From Mycoplasmatota bacterium (GTDB lineage: Bacteria > Bacillota_I > Bacilli_A > Izemoplasmatales > Izemoplasmataceae): a stretch of DNA of 48,985 bases. Of this stretch, positions 17,133 to 28,184 are shown piece after piece. Location: positions 1 to 48,985 of the forward strand of contig JAUVLT010000004.1 in assembly GCA_030600605.1 (NCBI GenBank), in the 5' to 3' direction. Below the pieces are notes generated by a model that was not told where the DNA came from, did not search any database, and was given only the letters and a program-made list of their open reading frames with translations. Position 1 is the stretch's first letter. Each line of letters opens with the position of its first letter. A program made the translations under genes and the position numbers.

Positions 17133-18168
17133 CTTTAACCTTCTTCTGCATTCTAGCAATTCTTCTACTTAGAATATCTGGCATTTTTACTTTGGGAGCA
17201 TACTCATGTAAGAGCCATGAAGATGCGTAATGAGTATCGGAAATCTTAAACATTGGTGGTTGTTCTTCAAAATCAATTGCTAACGCGTATTTATTACGTG
17301 CAGCAAATGCATCTCCAACTGGTGGGTGATGCATATCAGGTGGAGTTCCTGGGATTGAGAATAACATTTCCTTTGACTCTAAATCAGGCATTGATGATAA
17401 TAATGCCCAAGTATAAGGATGTCTTGGTTCATAGAATATTTCATCTGCAGTACCATATTCAACAATTTTACCAGCGTACATAACAGCAACTCTATCACTC
17501 ATATTAGCTACTACTCCTAAATCATGTGTAATAAAGATAACTGATAAATTACGTTCTTTTTTGATTTTATTAATTAATTCTAAAATTTGTGCCTGAATTG
17601 TAACATCAAGTGCCGTAGTAGGTTCATCACAAATTAGAATATCTGCATCATTTGCAAGTGCTATTGCAATTACTATTCTTTGTCTCATCCCACCTGAGAA
17701 TTGGAAAGGATAAGCAAAATAACGTTGTTCCGCACGGTCTATTCCTACTTCATTCATTAACTCTAAAGCTCTATCTTTAGCAGCTTGTTTAGAAAGTCCT
17801 AGTTTTAATACCAGTGCTTCTACAATTTGTTTCCCAACTTTCATAATTGGGTTTAAACTTGACATTGGATCTTGGAAGATCATTGCAATTCTTGATCCTC
17901 TTAATTTATGGAACTCATCTTCAGGAATTAACATTAAGTCATTACCTTCAAAGATAATAGACCCACCCTCGTGAATTGAGTTACCAGCTAATATTCCAAT
18001 GATTGCTCTACTTGTAACAGATTTTCCAGATCCACTCTCACCAACAATAGCTAAAGTCTCTCCTTTATATAAGTCAAATGTAACTTTTCTTACTGCTTTA
18101 ACTGTCCCATGTAACGTTTTAAAACTAACGCTTAATTCTTTTACTTCTAATATTTTTTCTCTATCCAT
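17119..18168 (-). CDS. oppD: Oligopeptide ABC transporter ATP-binding protein OppD
   Basis: A 349-aa ATPase with Walker A GESGSGKSV, Q-loop IAMIFQDPMSSLNPI, signature FSGGMRQRIVIAIAL, Walker B ILICDEPTTALD and H-loop FITHDLG. The carboxy-terminal peptide-transporter extension starts PRHPYTWALLSSMPDL. The usual iron-sulfur-type cysteine motif of many OppD/DppD carboxy termini is not seen. The start codon shares one base with the oppC stop (TAATG). It energises peptide uptake together with OppF. Confidence 0.94.
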   Translation of the reverse strand: MDREKILEVKELSVSFKTLHGTVKAVRKVTFDLYKGETLAIVGESGSGKSVTSRAIIGILAGNSIHEGGSIIFEGNDLMLIPEDEFHKLRGSRIAMIFQDPMSSLNPIMKVGKQIVEALVLKLGLSKQAAKDRALELMNEVGIDRAEQRYFAYPFQFSGGMRQRIVIAIALANDADILICDEPTTALDVTIQAQILELINKIKKERNLSVIFITHDLGVVANMSDRVAVMYAGKIVEYGTADEIFYEPRHPYTWALLSSMPDLESKEMLFSIPGTPPDMHHPPVGDAFAARNKYALAIDFEEQPPMFKISDTHYASSWLLHEYAPKVKMPDILSRRIARMQKKVKDAKK

Positions 18169-19634
18169 TATTCAACACCTCTTAATGATGGATTAAATGC
18201 ATCTCTTAGTCCATTACCAAACATATTGAATGATAACATTAATAATGAGATAAATACTGCTGGGAACAGTAAAACATGTGGACTATGTTGCATTACTTGT
18301 TGTCCGTTACTTAAAATTTTACCAATACTTATTGTTGCTCCATAATCAATAATTCCTAAGAAACTAAATGTAGCTTCTGTAAATATTACACCAGGAATAA
18401 TCAATACAACACTTGTAACGATTGTCCCAATGGCATTAGGGAAAATATGACGAGCCATCAATCTTGCATCTTTTGCACCTAAAGTGCGGGCTGCAAGAAC
18501 GTATTCACGACTCTTATATCTAAAGAATTGAGCCCGAACAGTTCGAGAAATTCCGATCCATCCGGTCAAAGTAAAGGCTATAACAACAATCCAGAACGAA
18601 GTTCCAAATCGCAGAGTTAATAAGGTAAGTACGGCTAAGAATGGTATTCCTGAAATAATTTCAAATACTCTTTGTAATATAAGGTCAGTAAGTGCACCAT
18701 AATATCCACTTATTGCACCAAGAATAACACCAATAATAATATTAATGAATGCTACACTAAATGCTACAACAAATGATATTCTTGCACCAAGCCAGATTAA
18801 TGTAAATAAATCACGGCCTTGACTGTCAGTACCAAACCAGAAATATGGATATCCTCCTTCTTCATAGCCTAAATACTGCCAATAGAGCACTCTAACTTTC
18901 CACATACTAACTTCTGTGTATCCAATATTTGCTCCAGTTTCATTATCATGACACTGTTCTTCTATAACACCAGCTACTTCCACATCGACAATTGTACCAA
19001 GACAAACATCACTTGTAAATGCAACTGGAGATCCAACAATTACATCTGGATTAACAGCATCAAATTCTTCTTGTGTTAGTGATAAAAACTTATCATCTCC
19101 ATAAGTATTTACGTAATTAACATATAAATAATAATCGACTAAAATGTCAGCATAAGTAGTCTCAGTGAAAGGTATTTCTACCCCGGCTGCATAACACTTA
19201 TCGGGTGTTTCGCCAGTTTCATCAACAACGATATTACCCTCACATTTTGATTCAGTCCAATTATTAAGAATTTCAACAACAGTACCTTCAGGAAGATTAG
19301 GATCATAAAAATCACTTAATCTTCTATTTTCTAGTACTTTTGTACCATCAAAGATTCCCCAATCCTCAAGTACTTCTATACGAGGTGGAATCTCTTTTAA
19401 ACGAATATTTTTATCATCATATGTCCATTTATTAAAATATGGTCCAATAATCGATAAAATTATTAATGAAGTTAATATAATAAATGCAACAACTGATACA
19501 CGATTTCTTTTAAAACGAATCCAGGCATCTTTAAAATATCCAATTGGTTTGTCTGTCATAGCTTGATCATAGATTATTTTATCGCTTTGTACTAAGGTAA
19601 ACTTTGATTTATCTAAATTTTTAAATTCATCCAT
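18168..19634 (-). CDS. oppC: Oligopeptide ABC transporter permease OppC with large extracellular insertion
   Basis: A 488-aa permease, far longer than the usual ~300. Residues 1-45 are cytoplasmic, helix 1 spans about 46-66, and the conserved FGTDSQGRD entry to the permease core only comes at 267. The core contains the EAA loop RTLGAKDARLMARHIFPNA. The ~195 residues between helix 1 and the core should lie outside the cell. They include two similar cysteine modules: C131-EGNIV...C147 with IPFTET, and C211-LGTIV...C228 with IGYTEV. These four cysteines may form two disulfides. The neighbouring OppA is also enlarged, which suggests that receptor and permease dock through added surface domains (inference). 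Confidence 0.93.
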   Translation of the reverse strand: MDEFKNLDKSKFTLVQSDKIIYDQAMTDKPIGYFKDAWIRFKRNRVSVVAFIILTSLIILSIIGPYFNKWTYDDKNIRLKEIPPRIEVLEDWGIFDGTKVLENRRLSDFYDPNLPEGTVVEILNNWTESKCEGNIVVDETGETPDKCYAAGVEIPFTETTYADILVDYYLYVNYVNTYGDDKFLSLTQEEFDAVNPDVIVGSPVAFTSDVCLGTIVDVEVAGVIEEQCHDNETGANIGYTEVSMWKVRVLYWQYLGYEEGGYPYFWFGTDSQGRDLFTLIWLGARISFVVAFSVAFINIIIGVILGAISGYYGALTDLILQRVFEIISGIPFLAVLTLLTLRFGTSFWIVVIAFTLTGWIGISRTVRAQFFRYKSREYVLAARTLGAKDARLMARHIFPNAIGTIVTSVVLIIPGVIFTEATFSFLGIIDYGATISIGKILSNGQQVMQHSPHVLLFPAVFISLLMLSFNMFGNGLRDAFNPSLRGVE

Positions 19635-20590
19635 TATTTTTTACCTCCACCAAGTCTGATACGTGGATCGACTATACTATATGAAATATCTACAACTAAA
19701 GTAGTAACTAAACCAATTACCATGTAAAACAATAATAACATCATAACAAGTGGATAATCTCGACCAGTAAAGGCTTCAAGATATACCCCACCAATTCCGG
19801 GTATTCTAAAGATTCTTTCAATTATTAACGAACCTGCAAGTACACTTACTAGCCCACCAATAATGATTGGTGCAAGAGGCACCATAGAATTTCTCATCGC
19901 ATGTCTAACTGTTGATTGTCTTCTAGTTAATCCTTTTGTACGGCATAACAGCATAAATTCACTCGTTAACACTTCTGTTAGTTCCGCACGTGTATACCGA
20001 GTTAATACCGCAACTGATCCTGTTGTCATAGCTAAAACTGGTAACACTATTGAAGTGTACGCAAGTTCTGGATTATCAACAACATCTATTCGAGCTGCAT
20101 AAAGTGGAGGAAATAAATCCCACACATATCCCAAATAATATTGCATCAAAGTAGCCACAACAAAACTTGGTACTGAAATAAAGAATATAACCCCGATAGA
20201 AATCAGATGATCATCAGGTTTATTTTTTCGTAATGCGGCCCATATCCCTAGTGAAAATCCTATTGGGATTGATATAAAGAATGGGTATATATTTACTTTT
20301 ACAGAAACAGGTATTCTATCTTTTAAAACAGCAATTACGTCTGAATTTTTTGTTACAGACCAACCAAATTCACCTCTAAGAGCAATATTTTTAATCCAAA
20401 TTTGAAATTGCTCTGGAATTGGTTTGTTGTAACCTTCACGATCTTGAATTATCTCCCATTGTTCAGGATCTATCCCAAGTTGTGGCTTGTTAAAATTAGG
20501 CATCATATGAATCATAACAAATACTATAATTGTTATTATAAAAGCTGTTATAATCATTAACCCTATTCTTTGTAAAATGTACCTTACCAT
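19634..20590 (-). CDS. oppB: Oligopeptide ABC transporter permease OppB
   Basis: A 318-aa permease of normal length. Helix 1 is at about 9-30; the extracellular loop has PIPEQFQIWIKNIALRGEFGWS, a typical OppB/DppB phrase. The coupling loop is RTKGLTRRQSTVRHAMRNS, and the end has GGVYLEAFTGRDYPLVM. Forms the membrane channel with OppC. Start at 20590 has GGAG 8 nt upstream. A stable stem-loop separates it from oppA, so expression of oppBCDF may be lower than that of the receptor. Its stop overlaps the oppC start by one base pair pattern TAATG. Confidence 0.95.
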   Translation of the reverse strand: MVRYILQRIGLMIITAFIITIIVFVMIHMMPNFNKPQLGIDPEQWEIIQDREGYNKPIPEQFQIWIKNIALRGEFGWSVTKNSDVIAVLKDRIPVSVKVNIYPFFISIPIGFSLGIWAALRKNKPDDHLISIGVIFFISVPSFVVATLMQYYLGYVWDLFPPLYAARIDVVDNPELAYTSIVLPVLAMTTGSVAVLTRYTRAELTEVLTSEFMLLCRTKGLTRRQSTVRHAMRNSMVPLAPIIIGGLVSVLAGSLIIERIFRIPGIGGVYLEAFTGRDYPLVMMLLLFYMVIGLVTTLVVDISYSIVDPRIRLGGGKK

Positions 20591-20691: not shown

Positions 20692-23600
20692 TTAGTTAAT
20701 TGGATCAGGAGAATTTAGATACATGTATTTCATTCCTCCCCATCCCATCCAAGCGTGATACTCTTGAACTTCTACAACAACACGGTCACTATAAACAACT
20801 GTACCAACACGTGAGAATAATGGAATTGCTAATACTTCGTCAAGAAGTCTAGCTTCAATACCAGCACAAATGTTTAGTAAGTCTTCATCTTTACCATCGT
20901 AAGGTGAGTATAAGAATCCACCTGAATTATGTTCAGCCATCCATTCGTTGAATGTAAGCATTAATACGTCGTCAGTTCCGATAGTCATTAATTTATCGTA
21001 TAACCATTCATCGTATACCCATTCATCGTATGTATCTAGAAGAACATCGTAAGCTGCATAATCAACTAAATAAGCATCATACGCATCTGCGGCAGTTTGT
21101 CCAGCAGAATCTAATGCATCGTACCAAGCAGCACGTCCATCAGCGCCAACAGCAATATATCCAGTAGGTTCTGTAACTTCAGTAGGTTCAGTAGGTTCTG
21201 TAACGTCAGCAGGATCCACTAAAGTACCCATTTGATCTACATAATTCGGAATTGCAACATCGATTTCAAAGTTTTCAGAATCCCAACCCCATTCTTGCAT
21301 ATAAGAATAATATGAGTTATAAACATAACCAATTAAACCGATAGGATCAAATTTCATACCTTGCCAACCATAGAATACGATATCGAAATCATGATTGTCA
21401 ACAGCAACGTCTAGTGCGTCTCCACCAAGAGCGTTAATTCTAAATTGAAAGATATCTTCGTTAGCTCCACCAAGTTGAGCATCAAATGCATTTGTAACTA
21501 CGTTAGATACCCAGTTATTAGTTGTCCAGTTAGTTTCTGCATCAAACATTGTTAATTCTAACCATACAAGGTCTCCATCAGCAATGTCCCCAGCAGTAAC
21601 AGCTTGTGCATAAGCAGAATTAAATAATGCTAATGCAGCAACAGGATTATATCCTGCAGTATCTGGATAAAGGTCAGCTAATACAGCAATACCTTGTGAA
21701 GAACCACGGTAAGACATTGAACTTGTATCACTAATGATATATTCAGGAGATAGGAATGCTTGGTTAGCAAATGCAGGTGCATTTACAGTAGCAACCATTT
21801 CTTGTCTATCAATAGCATGATAAATCGCTTTTCTAAAGTCAGCATATTTCATCATTGGGTTCGTATTACCATCAGTTCTATCACCAATGTTAGTTGCCCA
21901 ACGGAAAGTAGTTGTAGCAGGTGATAGTTGAACATTAGGATTGTTTTTGAATTCTGGGTAGTAAACTCCACCAACACCAGCAACATCTAAACGTCCAGCT
22001 TTAAATTCATTAACGATAACTGATTGATCAGTTATTGTATTATATCTAACATGAGTCATTCTAAATGATTCAGCATCGAAATGATCATCATTTCTTTCAT
22101 AAATGTATACAACTCCAGGTTCCCAAGTTGTAAGGTTATAAGGTCCATAAGACATAATAGTATCAATAGTAGTACCGTAATTAGTTACAGTTCTAGTTTC
22201 ATTCATACCAGCTTCATATAAAGTTTGGTGAACAGGACCATTTGCTCCACCTTGTAAGTTTCCTCTAAGATCCCAATCAGTCATTGGAGATTTTAAAGTA
22301 AGTGTAATAACAAATTGACTAGTTGCTTCAATACCTACAGTATCCCAAGCGATTGTATAAGCATCAAGTGGGTTAGCAGGTGTACTTTGTTTAGCATAAT
22401 CTTCTGCTCCTGAGATAGGAATATCAGTATATAAGTTACTAGCACGTTCATTAACTAGACGTGGATCTAATAACATTCTAAATGAATATTCATAAGTATA
22501 AGCATCGATTAAAGTACCATCTTCCCAATAAACGTCATCTCTAATTGGAATTTCCCATACAGTCATTGGTTCTTCACCTAATGCTACAGAAATATCTACA
22601 GGCATTCCAGATGCCATATAAGGGAATCTGTCATAAGATAAGCTTGCTGAGTTAGTAAAGTCACCAACACCAGTAGCTACGCCATCAGCAATAGAAGTTT
22701 CCCAATCGAAGTCTCCATTGTATAATCCACCAGTTATCCAACCGAATAAAGTAGATGCGTTAGCTAAAGTAGTATTATGTGGGTTGATATTAGTTGTATC
22801 ACTAATTGTAGTACGATAAGTATAAGTAGCTTCAGTACCAACTACAACAGCAACAAATGATTTTGTTAATTCTTCAGTTCCTACAACGATAGTTGCAGTT
22901 AAAGTAACAGCTGTATTTCTTAAAGGTGCAGCAACAGTAGCGTGACCCATTGCGTCAACAATAATAATACCAGTATTTGATGATTCCCAAGAAATTACTG
23001 AATCATATAAACCAGCTAATGGTAAGTCGAAACTTCCATCAACAAAGTCGATTCCAAATACTTCTAACGCTGCTTGTGCTTCAGCAACTTTAGTAGCGTC
23101 ATCTTGAGGTGCTTGAACAACTACTAATTCAAATATTTTTTCTGCAGGTTCTACTACAACATCTTCATCATTCCAACTAAGTTCAGCAGTCATTCTAACA
23201 TTAACGTTAGAGTCAGCTGGACGTACAATTGTAACAAGTAATCCGTTTGCAGTAACACTTGTAGTAACTACAGTTGCATCGTATCCAGCAAAGTAAACAT
23301 TATCAATTTCATATTGATCGTATGCTTCCATTGCATCAACAGCAGTTTGATCGTAACCATCCTTGTCTCCAGGAATAGTATCACCAACGTATGAAGGATA
23401 CATATCCCAAACACCGTTAGCCATTAAGAAATCAAGTCCGCCTGCACCGTTATCATCGTATGCCCACCAACCGCATGCATCTTCTGCTACGCCGTCAGGG
23501 AATACAGTAACTCCAGTAACTGGATGTGTGAAATCATCTTCATGCATATCTCCACGAGTACCAGTTTCAGCAGCACCAGTTAAATCGTCAGTTGTAATAA

Positions 23601-24246
23601 TCATACAACCATCATATGTAGAAGTAGCTTCTGCATATGCAGCGCGTCCAGTATCACCAACTGAAATGTATCCAGTAGGTTTTGTTGGTTCTGTTGGGAA
23701 CTCATCTGACATGTCATCATAAGCCACAACAGTCCAATCTATTAAGATTTCTTCGTATAATGGAGATGTAAGAGGTAATAAGAAGCTAGTTTCTACTACA
23801 TTTCCTAAATCTAATACATCAACAAATCTTAAAGATTTTTTAGCTTCTGCTAATTTTTCAGCAACTCCACCAGGAACTGCGATTACAGTAGCAGTAAAAG
23901 TTTTTGTTTCATTTTCTATTCCTTTAGCAGCAGTAACTGTTAAAGTAACAGTAACATTGTCTTCACCTTCGCCAGGTCTTGTAACCACAGCTGAAGTACC
24001 GCTAATAGCGATCGTATTACCATCACTACTAAACCAAGTGTAAGTTGCCCCGTCTTCATGTGAAGAAGGTAAAGTGAAATCTGCTAAGACTTCGCTTAAG
24101 TCACCTAGTGTTACGTCTTCAATAGCAGATGTAACAGCATCTAAGTCCGGATTACCAGCATCTGGTTCTGGTTCAGGATCCGGTTTACAAGCTGATAAAC
24201 CTAATACAAAAACGAATATTAAAAATAATGATAAAATCTTTTTCAT
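20692..24246 (-). CDS. oppA: Oversized oligopeptide-binding lipoprotein OppA with Ig-like modules and duplicated insert
   Basis: An 1184-aa extracellular peptide receptor, about twice the usual length. Lipobox LGLSAC puts lipid on C20. Atrophied-Ig-type domains lie at about 36-122, 125-380 (split by an insert) and 382-470. The family-5 solute-binding domain runs from about 472 to the end (WEIPIRDDVYWEDGTLI, RKAIYHAIDRQEM). A related insert occurs twice: PTGYISVGDTGRAAY at 190-204, inside the second Ig domain, and PTGYIAVGADGRAAW at 1027-1041, inside the binding domain. Both are preceded by PTEPT and followed by AYDxY-rich sequence. By eye the gene is less AT-rich than its neighbours, which may reflect high expression. 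Ribosome site AAAGGAGGAG. First gene of oppABCDF; a cre-like site lies above its promoter. Confidence 0.93.
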   Translation of the reverse strand: MKKILSLFLIFVFVLGLSACKPDPEPEPDAGNPDLDAVTSAIEDVTLGDLSEVLADFTLPSSHEDGATYTWFSSDGNTIAISGTSAVVTRPGEGEDNVTVTLTVTAAKGIENETKTFTATVIAVPGGVAEKLAEAKKSLRFVDVLDLGNVVETSFLLPLTSPLYEEILIDWTVVAYDDMSDEFPTEPTKPTGYISVGDTGRAAYAEATSTYDGCMIITTDDLTGAAETGTRGDMHEDDFTHPVTGVTVFPDGVAEDACGWWAYDDNGAGGLDFLMANGVWDMYPSYVGDTIPGDKDGYDQTAVDAMEAYDQYEIDNVYFAGYDATVVTTSVTANGLLVTIVRPADSNVNVRMTAELSWNDEDVVVEPAEKIFELVVVQAPQDDATKVAEAQAALEVFGIDFVDGSFDLPLAGLYDSVISWESSNTGIIIVDAMGHATVAAPLRNTAVTLTATIVVGTEELTKSFVAVVVGTEATYTYRTTISDTTNINPHNTTLANASTLFGWITGGLYNGDFDWETSIADGVATGVGDFTNSASLSYDRFPYMASGMPVDISVALGEEPMTVWEIPIRDDVYWEDGTLIDAYTYEYSFRMLLDPRLVNERASNLYTDIPISGAEDYAKQSTPANPLDAYTIAWDTVGIEATSQFVITLTLKSPMTDWDLRGNLQGGANGPVHQTLYEAGMNETRTVTNYGTTIDTIMSYGPYNLTTWEPGVVYIYERNDDHFDAESFRMTHVRYNTITDQSVIVNEFKAGRLDVAGVGGVYYPEFKNNPNVQLSPATTTFRWATNIGDRTDGNTNPMMKYADFRKAIYHAIDRQEMVATVNAPAFANQAFLSPEYIISDTSSMSYRGSSQGIAVLADLYPDTAGYNPVAALALFNSAYAQAVTAGDIADGDLVWLELTMFDAETNWTTNNWVSNVVTNAFDAQLGGANEDIFQFRINALGGDALDVAVDNHDFDIVFYGWQGMKFDPIGLIGYVYNSYYSYMQEWGWDSENFEIDVAIPNYVDQMGTLVDPADVTEPTEPTEVTEPTGYIAVGADGRAAWYDALDSAGQTAADAYDAYLVDYAAYDVLLDTYDEWVYDEWLYDKLMTIGTDDVLMLTFNEWMAEHNSGGFLYSPYDGKDEDLLNICAGIEARLLDEVLAIPLFSRVGTVVYSDRVVVEVQEYHAWMGWGGMKYMYLNSPDPIN

Positions 24247-26030: not shown

Positions 26031-28184
26031 TTAATTTCCGTTAATAATTGCAATCAACTCAGTATTACTATTAACATTTTCCATATAATAATCAACTTCA
26101 ATACCTGATTCAATACTATCATATCTTGAATCAGTTAACATTCCAGTACTACTTATTAACAATCCTGATCCATCAGGTGTTAATATAGCAGCAATTGAGC
26201 AAGCACCACCACTTGAGTTTTGACCAACAATAGTAGCAATACCCATATCTTTAGCAACACTTGTCATTAAGTTAGCAGCACTAAATGTAACTCCAGATGT
26301 TAGAATGTACCAATCAACATCAGCAGCAGTATTTTCAGTACTCATAAACCATGATTCAGTAGCTCCACTAGTTACATCTTTACTATGAATTCCAATTGGT
26401 TCATCAGTTAAGAATCCTAATATTTGGAAAGTACTTCCTAGTATTCCTCCGCCATTACAAGTTAAATCAATAACAATGCTTTCAACTGTACCAAGCGCAA
26501 GTAATGCATTCAAACTAGCTTCAAATTCATCTGGTGTTTCAGCTTCAAATCCATCAATAAAAATAATTCCGATTTTACCACCATCAATAACTCGATAGGC
26601 TGATTTAGAATCACATGCATCCTCTAAATCCCAATATGTTTCATAATATTCTTGAGAGTTAGGGCCTAAGTCACTAAGCATCAAATTTAATTCATAATTG
26701 CTTTCATAGTAACCTGAGAACATATGTGATGTATGTAAATCGTCACGGCTATAAGCAGCTCTAAATATTGCTTTATATAATGCTCTATCATCAGAATTTA
26801 CAAAATTACTATAATATATACTAAATTCATCATAATAACTTTCTACTTCTTGTTCTTCTCTTAATCCATAAAAATAATCAAATATAAAGATAACAAAATC
26901 ATAACTCGCTTCTTTCAAATCATTTGGCATATCTTCGGTATTAAGAGAACTATTCATTACAGTAGTTCCAACTGTATCATCGTCCATCAATTGATAAGTA
27001 TCTACACCCCATAATTTATCACCATTATAATAAACATCATACATTCCACCTGAATAAAATAAATTAGCAAAATGGAAAGGAATTAAATATTTATCATTAT
27101 GAACTACTAAATCAAAATCATAATCATCAAAATCAATAGTTACTACATTTGGATCAGTAGATACATAATTTACTGTTTCTAGTCCAGTCCCAAAATCAGT
27201 TTGTGTTTCTTCAGATATTCCGTCAAAGAATGAAAAATCGTTAATACTTAATGTATTTTGAGTAAAATCATAAAGCATTTCCATATAATAATCATCTTCA
27301 TCTTCTCCACCATCAATTATATAAGAAACTGTTAATTGATCGCCAACTCCAACAACACTCAACTCATCACTTACAATTGCTCCAGTTAATAAAGTAATGA
27401 AATCTTGAACATCAATATATGGTAAATTTCCATTATTCATATAATAGATATTTGCATTCCCACTAGCAACGATATATTCATCAGCTAAACTTTCAAACGG
27501 GAAAGAAACAGTTGAAGTTACTAGATTATCGTCCTCTTTAACAAGATTAAATACAAAATCTTTTGTTTCATCAAATTCACCATTTCTTAAAGATGCAGTT
27601 AGTGTAACTGTCTCATCACCTTCAATAAATCCAGGTCTATTAATATGACCTCTAGTACTTATTAATCTTTCATCACTAGATGCCCATGAAATGTAACTAC
27701 CTTTTTCTCCTCTAGTTGGTAATGTTAAGTCTTCAGTGACATTTAGATTTATACCATCTAATAAGTTTTCTTTGTCATAAGCAACATCTGCTTCATCAGT
27801 ATTTGGAATGATTACTTCATCCAAACTTATAACAGTTGCGTTAAAAGCTTTTTGAAGTGTTATTCCTCCGTAACTTAATGTAGCAACTAATTGGATATAT
27901 TTATCTCCATCTTCGAATAAAGCTCTAACAACAACACCATCATTGCTTATTGCAGCAGGATTATTTGATTCCCATGTAATAACAACATCATGTAATCCAC
28001 TTGTTGGTAAAGTAATATTTTCTATTAAACTATCTATATTTCCTAAAGTTAATGCTTCTTGTGCTTCTAATATTTTTTCAGCATCTGTTAAAACAACCGG
28101 GTCATCAATAACAGGTTCAGGATTACATGCTGAAAGTGTGAACACCATCGTTAAAAAAAGTAAAAATATAAATCCTTTTTTCAT
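26031..28184 (-). CDS. Lipoprotein with two atrophied Ig domains and an S41 peptidase-like domain
   Basis: A 717-aa surface lipoprotein; lipobox FTLSAC lipidates C20. Two atrophied-Ig-type domains lie at about 35-120 and 136-215, each with LPT-x-G ... W-x-SS and a closing V-x-L-x-A-x-L, the same module type found in OppA. A middle domain (about 222-400) is unassigned. The carboxy-terminal 185 residues resemble family S41 peptidases: IGIIFIDGFE, DLTCNGGGILG (574-584) and the nucleophile motif TSGVTFSAANLM with Ser635. The CtpA catalytic Lys position (usually GKG after the nucleophile strand) reads GQNSSGGACS, so it is either a tricorn-like variant or inactive. Ribosome site AGGAGGAG. Probably a surface protease or a peptide-binding protein (inference). 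Confidence 0.82.
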   Translation of the reverse strand: MKKGFIFLLFLTMVFTLSACNPEPVIDDPVVLTDAEKILEAQEALTLGNIDSLIENITLPTSGLHDVVITWESNNPAAISNDGVVVRALFEDGDKYIQLVATLSYGGITLQKAFNATVISLDEVIIPNTDEADVAYDKENLLDGINLNVTEDLTLPTRGEKGSYISWASSDERLISTRGHINRPGFIEGDETVTLTASLRNGEFDETKDFVFNLVKEDDNLVTSTVSFPFESLADEYIVASGNANIYYMNNGNLPYIDVQDFITLLTGAIVSDELSVVGVGDQLTVSYIIDGGEDEDDYYMEMLYDFTQNTLSINDFSFFDGISEETQTDFGTGLETVNYVSTDPNVVTIDFDDYDFDLVVHNDKYLIPFHFANLFYSGGMYDVYYNGDKLWGVDTYQLMDDDTVGTTVMNSSLNTEDMPNDLKEASYDFVIFIFDYFYGLREEQEVESYYDEFSIYYSNFVNSDDRALYKAIFRAAYSRDDLHTSHMFSGYYESNYELNLMLSDLGPNSQEYYETYWDLEDACDSKSAYRVIDGGKIGIIFIDGFEAETPDEFEASLNALLALGTVESIVIDLTCNGGGILGSTFQILGFLTDEPIGIHSKDVTSGATESWFMSTENTAADVDWYILTSGVTFSAANLMTSVAKDMGIATIVGQNSSGGACSIAAILTPDGSGLLISSTGMLTDSRYDSIESGIEVDYYMENVNSNTELIAIINGN

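Follow-up and report, generated by a model that had tools for sequence, protein, structure and literature searches.

How one short sequence came to occupy two different domains of a single OppA-type lipoprotein is the question raised by this locus. A sequence-only reading had proposed a module able to move between folds within one gene, with an interaction surface or recombination as its possible meaning. The window is the whole stretch of DNA analysed, 48,985 nucleotides from a Mycoplasmatota bacterium, and the gene is an open reading frame of 1184 aa (20692..24246) which, together with all of its parts described below, is encoded on the minus strand. Its product matches the Pfam families PF00496 (7.4e-36) and PF20578 (6.4e-25) and starts with a signal sequence and lipobox (Cys20) at the N-terminus. 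Three aBig_2 domains are present: domain 1 (aa 45-123, 23878..24114) was recognised by Pfam and by an HMM of the clade, domain 3 (aa 387-470, 22837..23088) by the clade HMM, and domain 2 is interrupted. Domains 1 and 3 score above the cut-off of PF20578. The remainder of the protein is the SBP_bac_5 solute-binding domain (aa 471-1184, 20695..22836), 37-50% identical to its relatives, in which the PF00496 match extends over aa 562-978 (124.5 bits against a cut-off of 32.4, profile positions 17-363 of 368).

Genes for the permeases OppB (19634-20590) and OppC (18168-19634) follow downstream of oppA on the same strand. The domain match, the lipobox and the same-orientation OppB and OppC downstream are all shared with the SBP_bac_5 family (PF00496), which comprises OppA, DppE and others, and the gene product is predicted from its sequence to be the peptide-binding SBP_bac_5 protein of the Opp operon. 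Unlike usual SBP_bac_5 proteins, it carries the three N-terminal aBig_2 domains, the second of them with an insert of ~140 aa, and, close to its C-terminus, a variable segment of increased size. In an adjoining lipoprotein (26031-28184, minus strand), an S41 peptidase domain is joined to two aBig_2 domains.

Both peptides singled out earlier, and their DNA coordinates, matched exactly on checking: PTGYISVGDTGRAAY corresponds to aa 190-204 (23635-23679) and PTGYIAVGADGRAAW to aa 1027-1041 (21124-21168). The repeat itself is longer and extends over 24 residues of the form PTExTxPTGYIxVGxxGRAAxxxA, 16 of which are identical between copy 1 (aa 184-207, PTEPTKPTGYISVGDTGRAAYAEA, 23626..23697) and copy 2 (aa 1021-1044, PTEVTEPTGYIAVGADGRAAWYDA, 21115..21186). 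Plain self-BLAST of OppA does not detect this pair, which was found by an off-diagonal segment scan. Its BLOSUM62 score of 83 exceeds the maximum of 65 among 150 shuffles of the whole protein and was reached in none of 2000 shuffles restricted to the two regions, confirming that one short sequence is present in two different domains of OppA. The PTEPT noticed ahead of both motif copies is encoded at both sites by 9-bp tandem repeats, one at the start of copy 1 (coding PTEPT, 23678..23697) and one that lies upstream of copy 2 and runs into its start (coding T-E-P repeats, 21162..21202). The AYDxY-rich sequence said to come after the motif is only weakly borne out: it reaches p ~0.009 against shuffles, but its register is ambiguous and in copy 1 it lies ~90 aa downstream.

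Copy 1 is located in a true interruption of an atrophied-Ig domain. Domain 2 is matched in two parts by a profile representing the clade's uninterrupted aBig_2 domains, weakly at aa 130-160 (model positions 1-27) and clearly at aa 331-380 (model positions 44-87); an insert of ~140 aa (insert 1, ~aa 177-316, boundaries approximate, 23299..23718) therefore splits the domain at the loop following its I-x-W strand. The N-terminal part of the domain (aa 130-176, 23719..23859) gives a partial and weak match to the clade HMM and is homologous to domain 2 of the protein from the related genome G045, and the C-terminal part (~aa 317-380, 23107..23298) is recognised by the clade HMM. Compared with the aBig_2 family (PF20578), domains 1 and 3 are normal, whereas domain 2 is split, unlike the other aligned aBig_2 domains, in which the insertion site is a plain loop. 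Insert 1 is acidic in composition, contains two cysteines (214 and 258) absent from relatives and has no counterpart in these; it gave no match in Pfam, PHROGs, PDB, phages, plasmids or 150 related genomes.

The situation of copy 2 is different. It does sit in the solute-binding domain, but to say that it interrupts this domain was an overstatement, as the segment is variable in all relatives and no intact fold is broken. The insert 2 region (~aa 1001-1088, 20983..21246) is the long form of this segment and includes a 15-bp tandem repeat coding YDEW-VYDEW-LYD (20991..21031). In orthologues from G045, G004, G006, G066, G075, G088 and G098 the content of the site ranges from just a few residues up to a hairpin resembling a coiled coil, and the length and sequence of what is a variable helical segment differ strongly among all aligned relatives. 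Since the orthologues vary at this position, and the conventional OppA that this genome also encodes (575 aa) is without insert 2, we regard the latter as an enlarged version of a subfamily-variable segment. No recognised domain was found in it with Pfam or PHROGs, the two databases searched.

OppA orthologues of G045, G004, G066 and G088 share the SBP domain with the window protein (43-48% identity) and have the variable segment at the insert-2 site; unlike the window OppA, they are devoid of the motif. In the G088-type OppA, four Bact_surface_Ig-like domains (PF16403) replace aBig_2, and the SBP domain has an insert of its own (~155 aa) elsewhere. The N-terminal Ig modules have been exchanged as well, with aBig_2 in the window protein and G045 and PF16403 in G088. 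The proteins L036, L037 and L038 (from G004, G066 and G088, respectively) all possess four surface Ig-like repeats of ~80 aa and no aBig_2, with PF16403 shown for G088. The ~155-aa SBP-domain insert is conserved in OppA of G004, G066 and G088 and does not occur in G045 or the window protein. Neither insert 1 nor insert 2 matches it significantly, so homology with it was rejected. Of the three copies of the window-type OppA that G045 encodes (L034, L035), two are arranged in tandem on a single contig, and an OppA-like protein of G068 (L015) has several helical repeats of the ARAAYxALSxAxQ type at its C-terminus. Outside OppA, an extra loop of ~110-170 aa with several cysteines separates the first transmembrane segment of the window's OppC (minus strand) from the permease core; the OppC proteins of related genomes (435-666 aa) have long loops likewise.

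The motif is confined to this gene. Exactly two copies exist in the genome, both in oppA; a search of 150 related genomes revealed neither insert nor motif, and one of 395 genomes of the class returned chance-level matches only. Across 84,980 GTDB genomes the pattern GYIxVGxxGRAA was matched three times; two of the matches are not in frame with the likely gene, and the third is in an unrelated protein with the motif variant GYILVGDDGSAA. All three are unrelated chance matches. Neither the motif in viral contigs (IMG/VR) nor any OppA relative in the viral scan was detected, and the motif was not found at homologous positions in other OppA proteins among the relatives, a possibility raised beforehand. 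Profile matches (E 0.009-0.04) pointed to a region of arginyl-tRNA synthetase reading NPTGYLHVGHGRGAAYGD. An origin of the motif from argS was rejected, as the ArgS of this organism reads NPTGSLHIGHARGASAGD and its gene matches neither copy well at the DNA level; the weak profile matches are a coincidence. Comparable cross-domain motif repeats were absent from ~40 related proteins, in which only whole-domain or domain-sized repeats occurred, so that two-copy intragenic transfer is not habitual here. Literature searches brought up no directly comparable case.

The DNA of the two copies is similar, as had been observed (38/47 nt in the core, 76% identity over 59 nt), but only to the extent that shared residues and codon usage predict. 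Nine of the 16 conserved residues have identical codons, against 8.4 expected from the codon usage of the gene (P=0.48). As codon identity equals this expectation, the DNA likeness adds nothing beyond protein identity. The NG86 estimates between copies (dN 0.28, dS 0.81) suggest, on 24 codons, that the copies are old when measured by synonymous change and that the peptide was preserved better than the silent sites.

The explanation we consider rather probable is a lineage-private intragenic repeat, with a short segment copied once between two extracellular loops of one OppA gene. Ectopic recombination or slippage would have duplicated a segment of ~60-75 bp coding PTExT..GYIxVGxxGRAA a single time, and the 9-bp PTEPT tandem repeats ahead of both copies may plausibly have seeded the event. 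Recombination, one of the origins suggested at the outset, thus fares best when placed within the gene: two copies in one gene, each behind PTEPT repeats, make it the most likely source. Of the two sites, only that of insert 2 is variable in relatives, so the likelier direction would be from the hypervariable hairpin of the solute-binding domain to the loop of aBig_2 domain 2, in which further sequence would then have accumulated. The event may be old enough for synonymous sites to have randomised, with the peptide under moderate constraint thereafter. We infer direction and age in this way because the relatives compared are at most 50% identical and none exhibits an intermediate state. Saturation of the synonymous sites has left no trace of copying in the DNA, and the two copies may also have converged or descend from a third copy that has been lost. 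Most likely, the inserts are decorations of the flexible-linker-plus-helix type that enlarge the lipoprotein's outer surface, with peptide binding taking place elsewhere. Surface decoration under moderate constraint is favoured because extracellular regions of the Opp proteins in this clade commonly carry large, lineage-specific loop inserts, as in the OppC loops and the ~155-aa OppA insert of G004, G066 and G088.

The foremost rival, which we hold to be unlikely, is that the two GYIxVGxxGRAA segments form a functional pair, binding the same partner or each other and bridging the Ig-domain loop and the solute-binding lobe as an intramolecular clamp or dimer contact. This would agree with the conservation of residues next to randomised synonymous sites, with the location of both copies on extracellular, highly acidic and Tyr-rich inserts and with the equal order of linker and motif in the two. 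However, a dN of 0.28, taken over only 24 codons, does not amount to strong constraint, and the orthologues, none of which has the motif, presumably transport all the same. Moreover, single-sequence structure prediction produced models of very low confidence (pLDDT 37 for the aBig2 region with insert 1 and 31 for the SBP domain). More doubtful again is the specific version in which matched contact sites, moved by intragenic recombination and kept alike by selection, would link the Ig stalk with the solute-binding lobe, perhaps as a clamp or as a dimer interface. If the segments do contact each other, the repeat would matter more.

Convergence is a slightly poorer candidate than the functional pair: two low-complexity linkers rich in Pro/Thr/Glu and Tyr would have come to look alike by chance. 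The biased composition in parts of both inserts, and a DNA likeness no greater than the amino-acid identity implies, are compatible with this. The GYIxVGxxGRAA core is, however, not of low complexity, and the identity of core plus linker beats all shuffles. We infer duplication rather than convergence.

The module moving between folds, as first envisaged, finds no backing in two copies restricted to one gene and missing from relatives, GTDB genomes and viral contigs. An in-frame, protein-coding mobile repeat inserted twice is accordingly very improbable. The Rickettsia palindromic elements, with which it would be compared, are ~150 bp long, multi-copy and spread over many unrelated genes (PMC10969869). 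Like these, the window repeat adds an extra in-frame peptide at different places, here one sequence at two positions of different folds; unlike them, it has no palindrome and only two copies in a single gene. No inverted repeats were found at copy 1 or copy 2, and DNA folding at the copies was no better than in shuffles (z -0.8 and -0.95). A palindromic element of the Rickettsia type or a MITE-type repeat was rejected on copy number and the missing inverted repeats. An assembly artefact of this metagenome-derived contig is the least credible of all, for although the genome is fragmented (115 contigs), the frame that holds both copies is long and intact and belongs to a standard opp operon, 19% of core bases differ between them and their base composition is near that of the rest of the gene.

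The repeat does not, in conclusion, reveal a mobile protein module. It is a small and clean illustration of the way in which a surface lipoprotein may add sequence from its own gene to loops that tolerate insertion. The extracellular parts of the Opp system in this clade change fast, by loop insertion and by exchange of N-terminal Ig modules.
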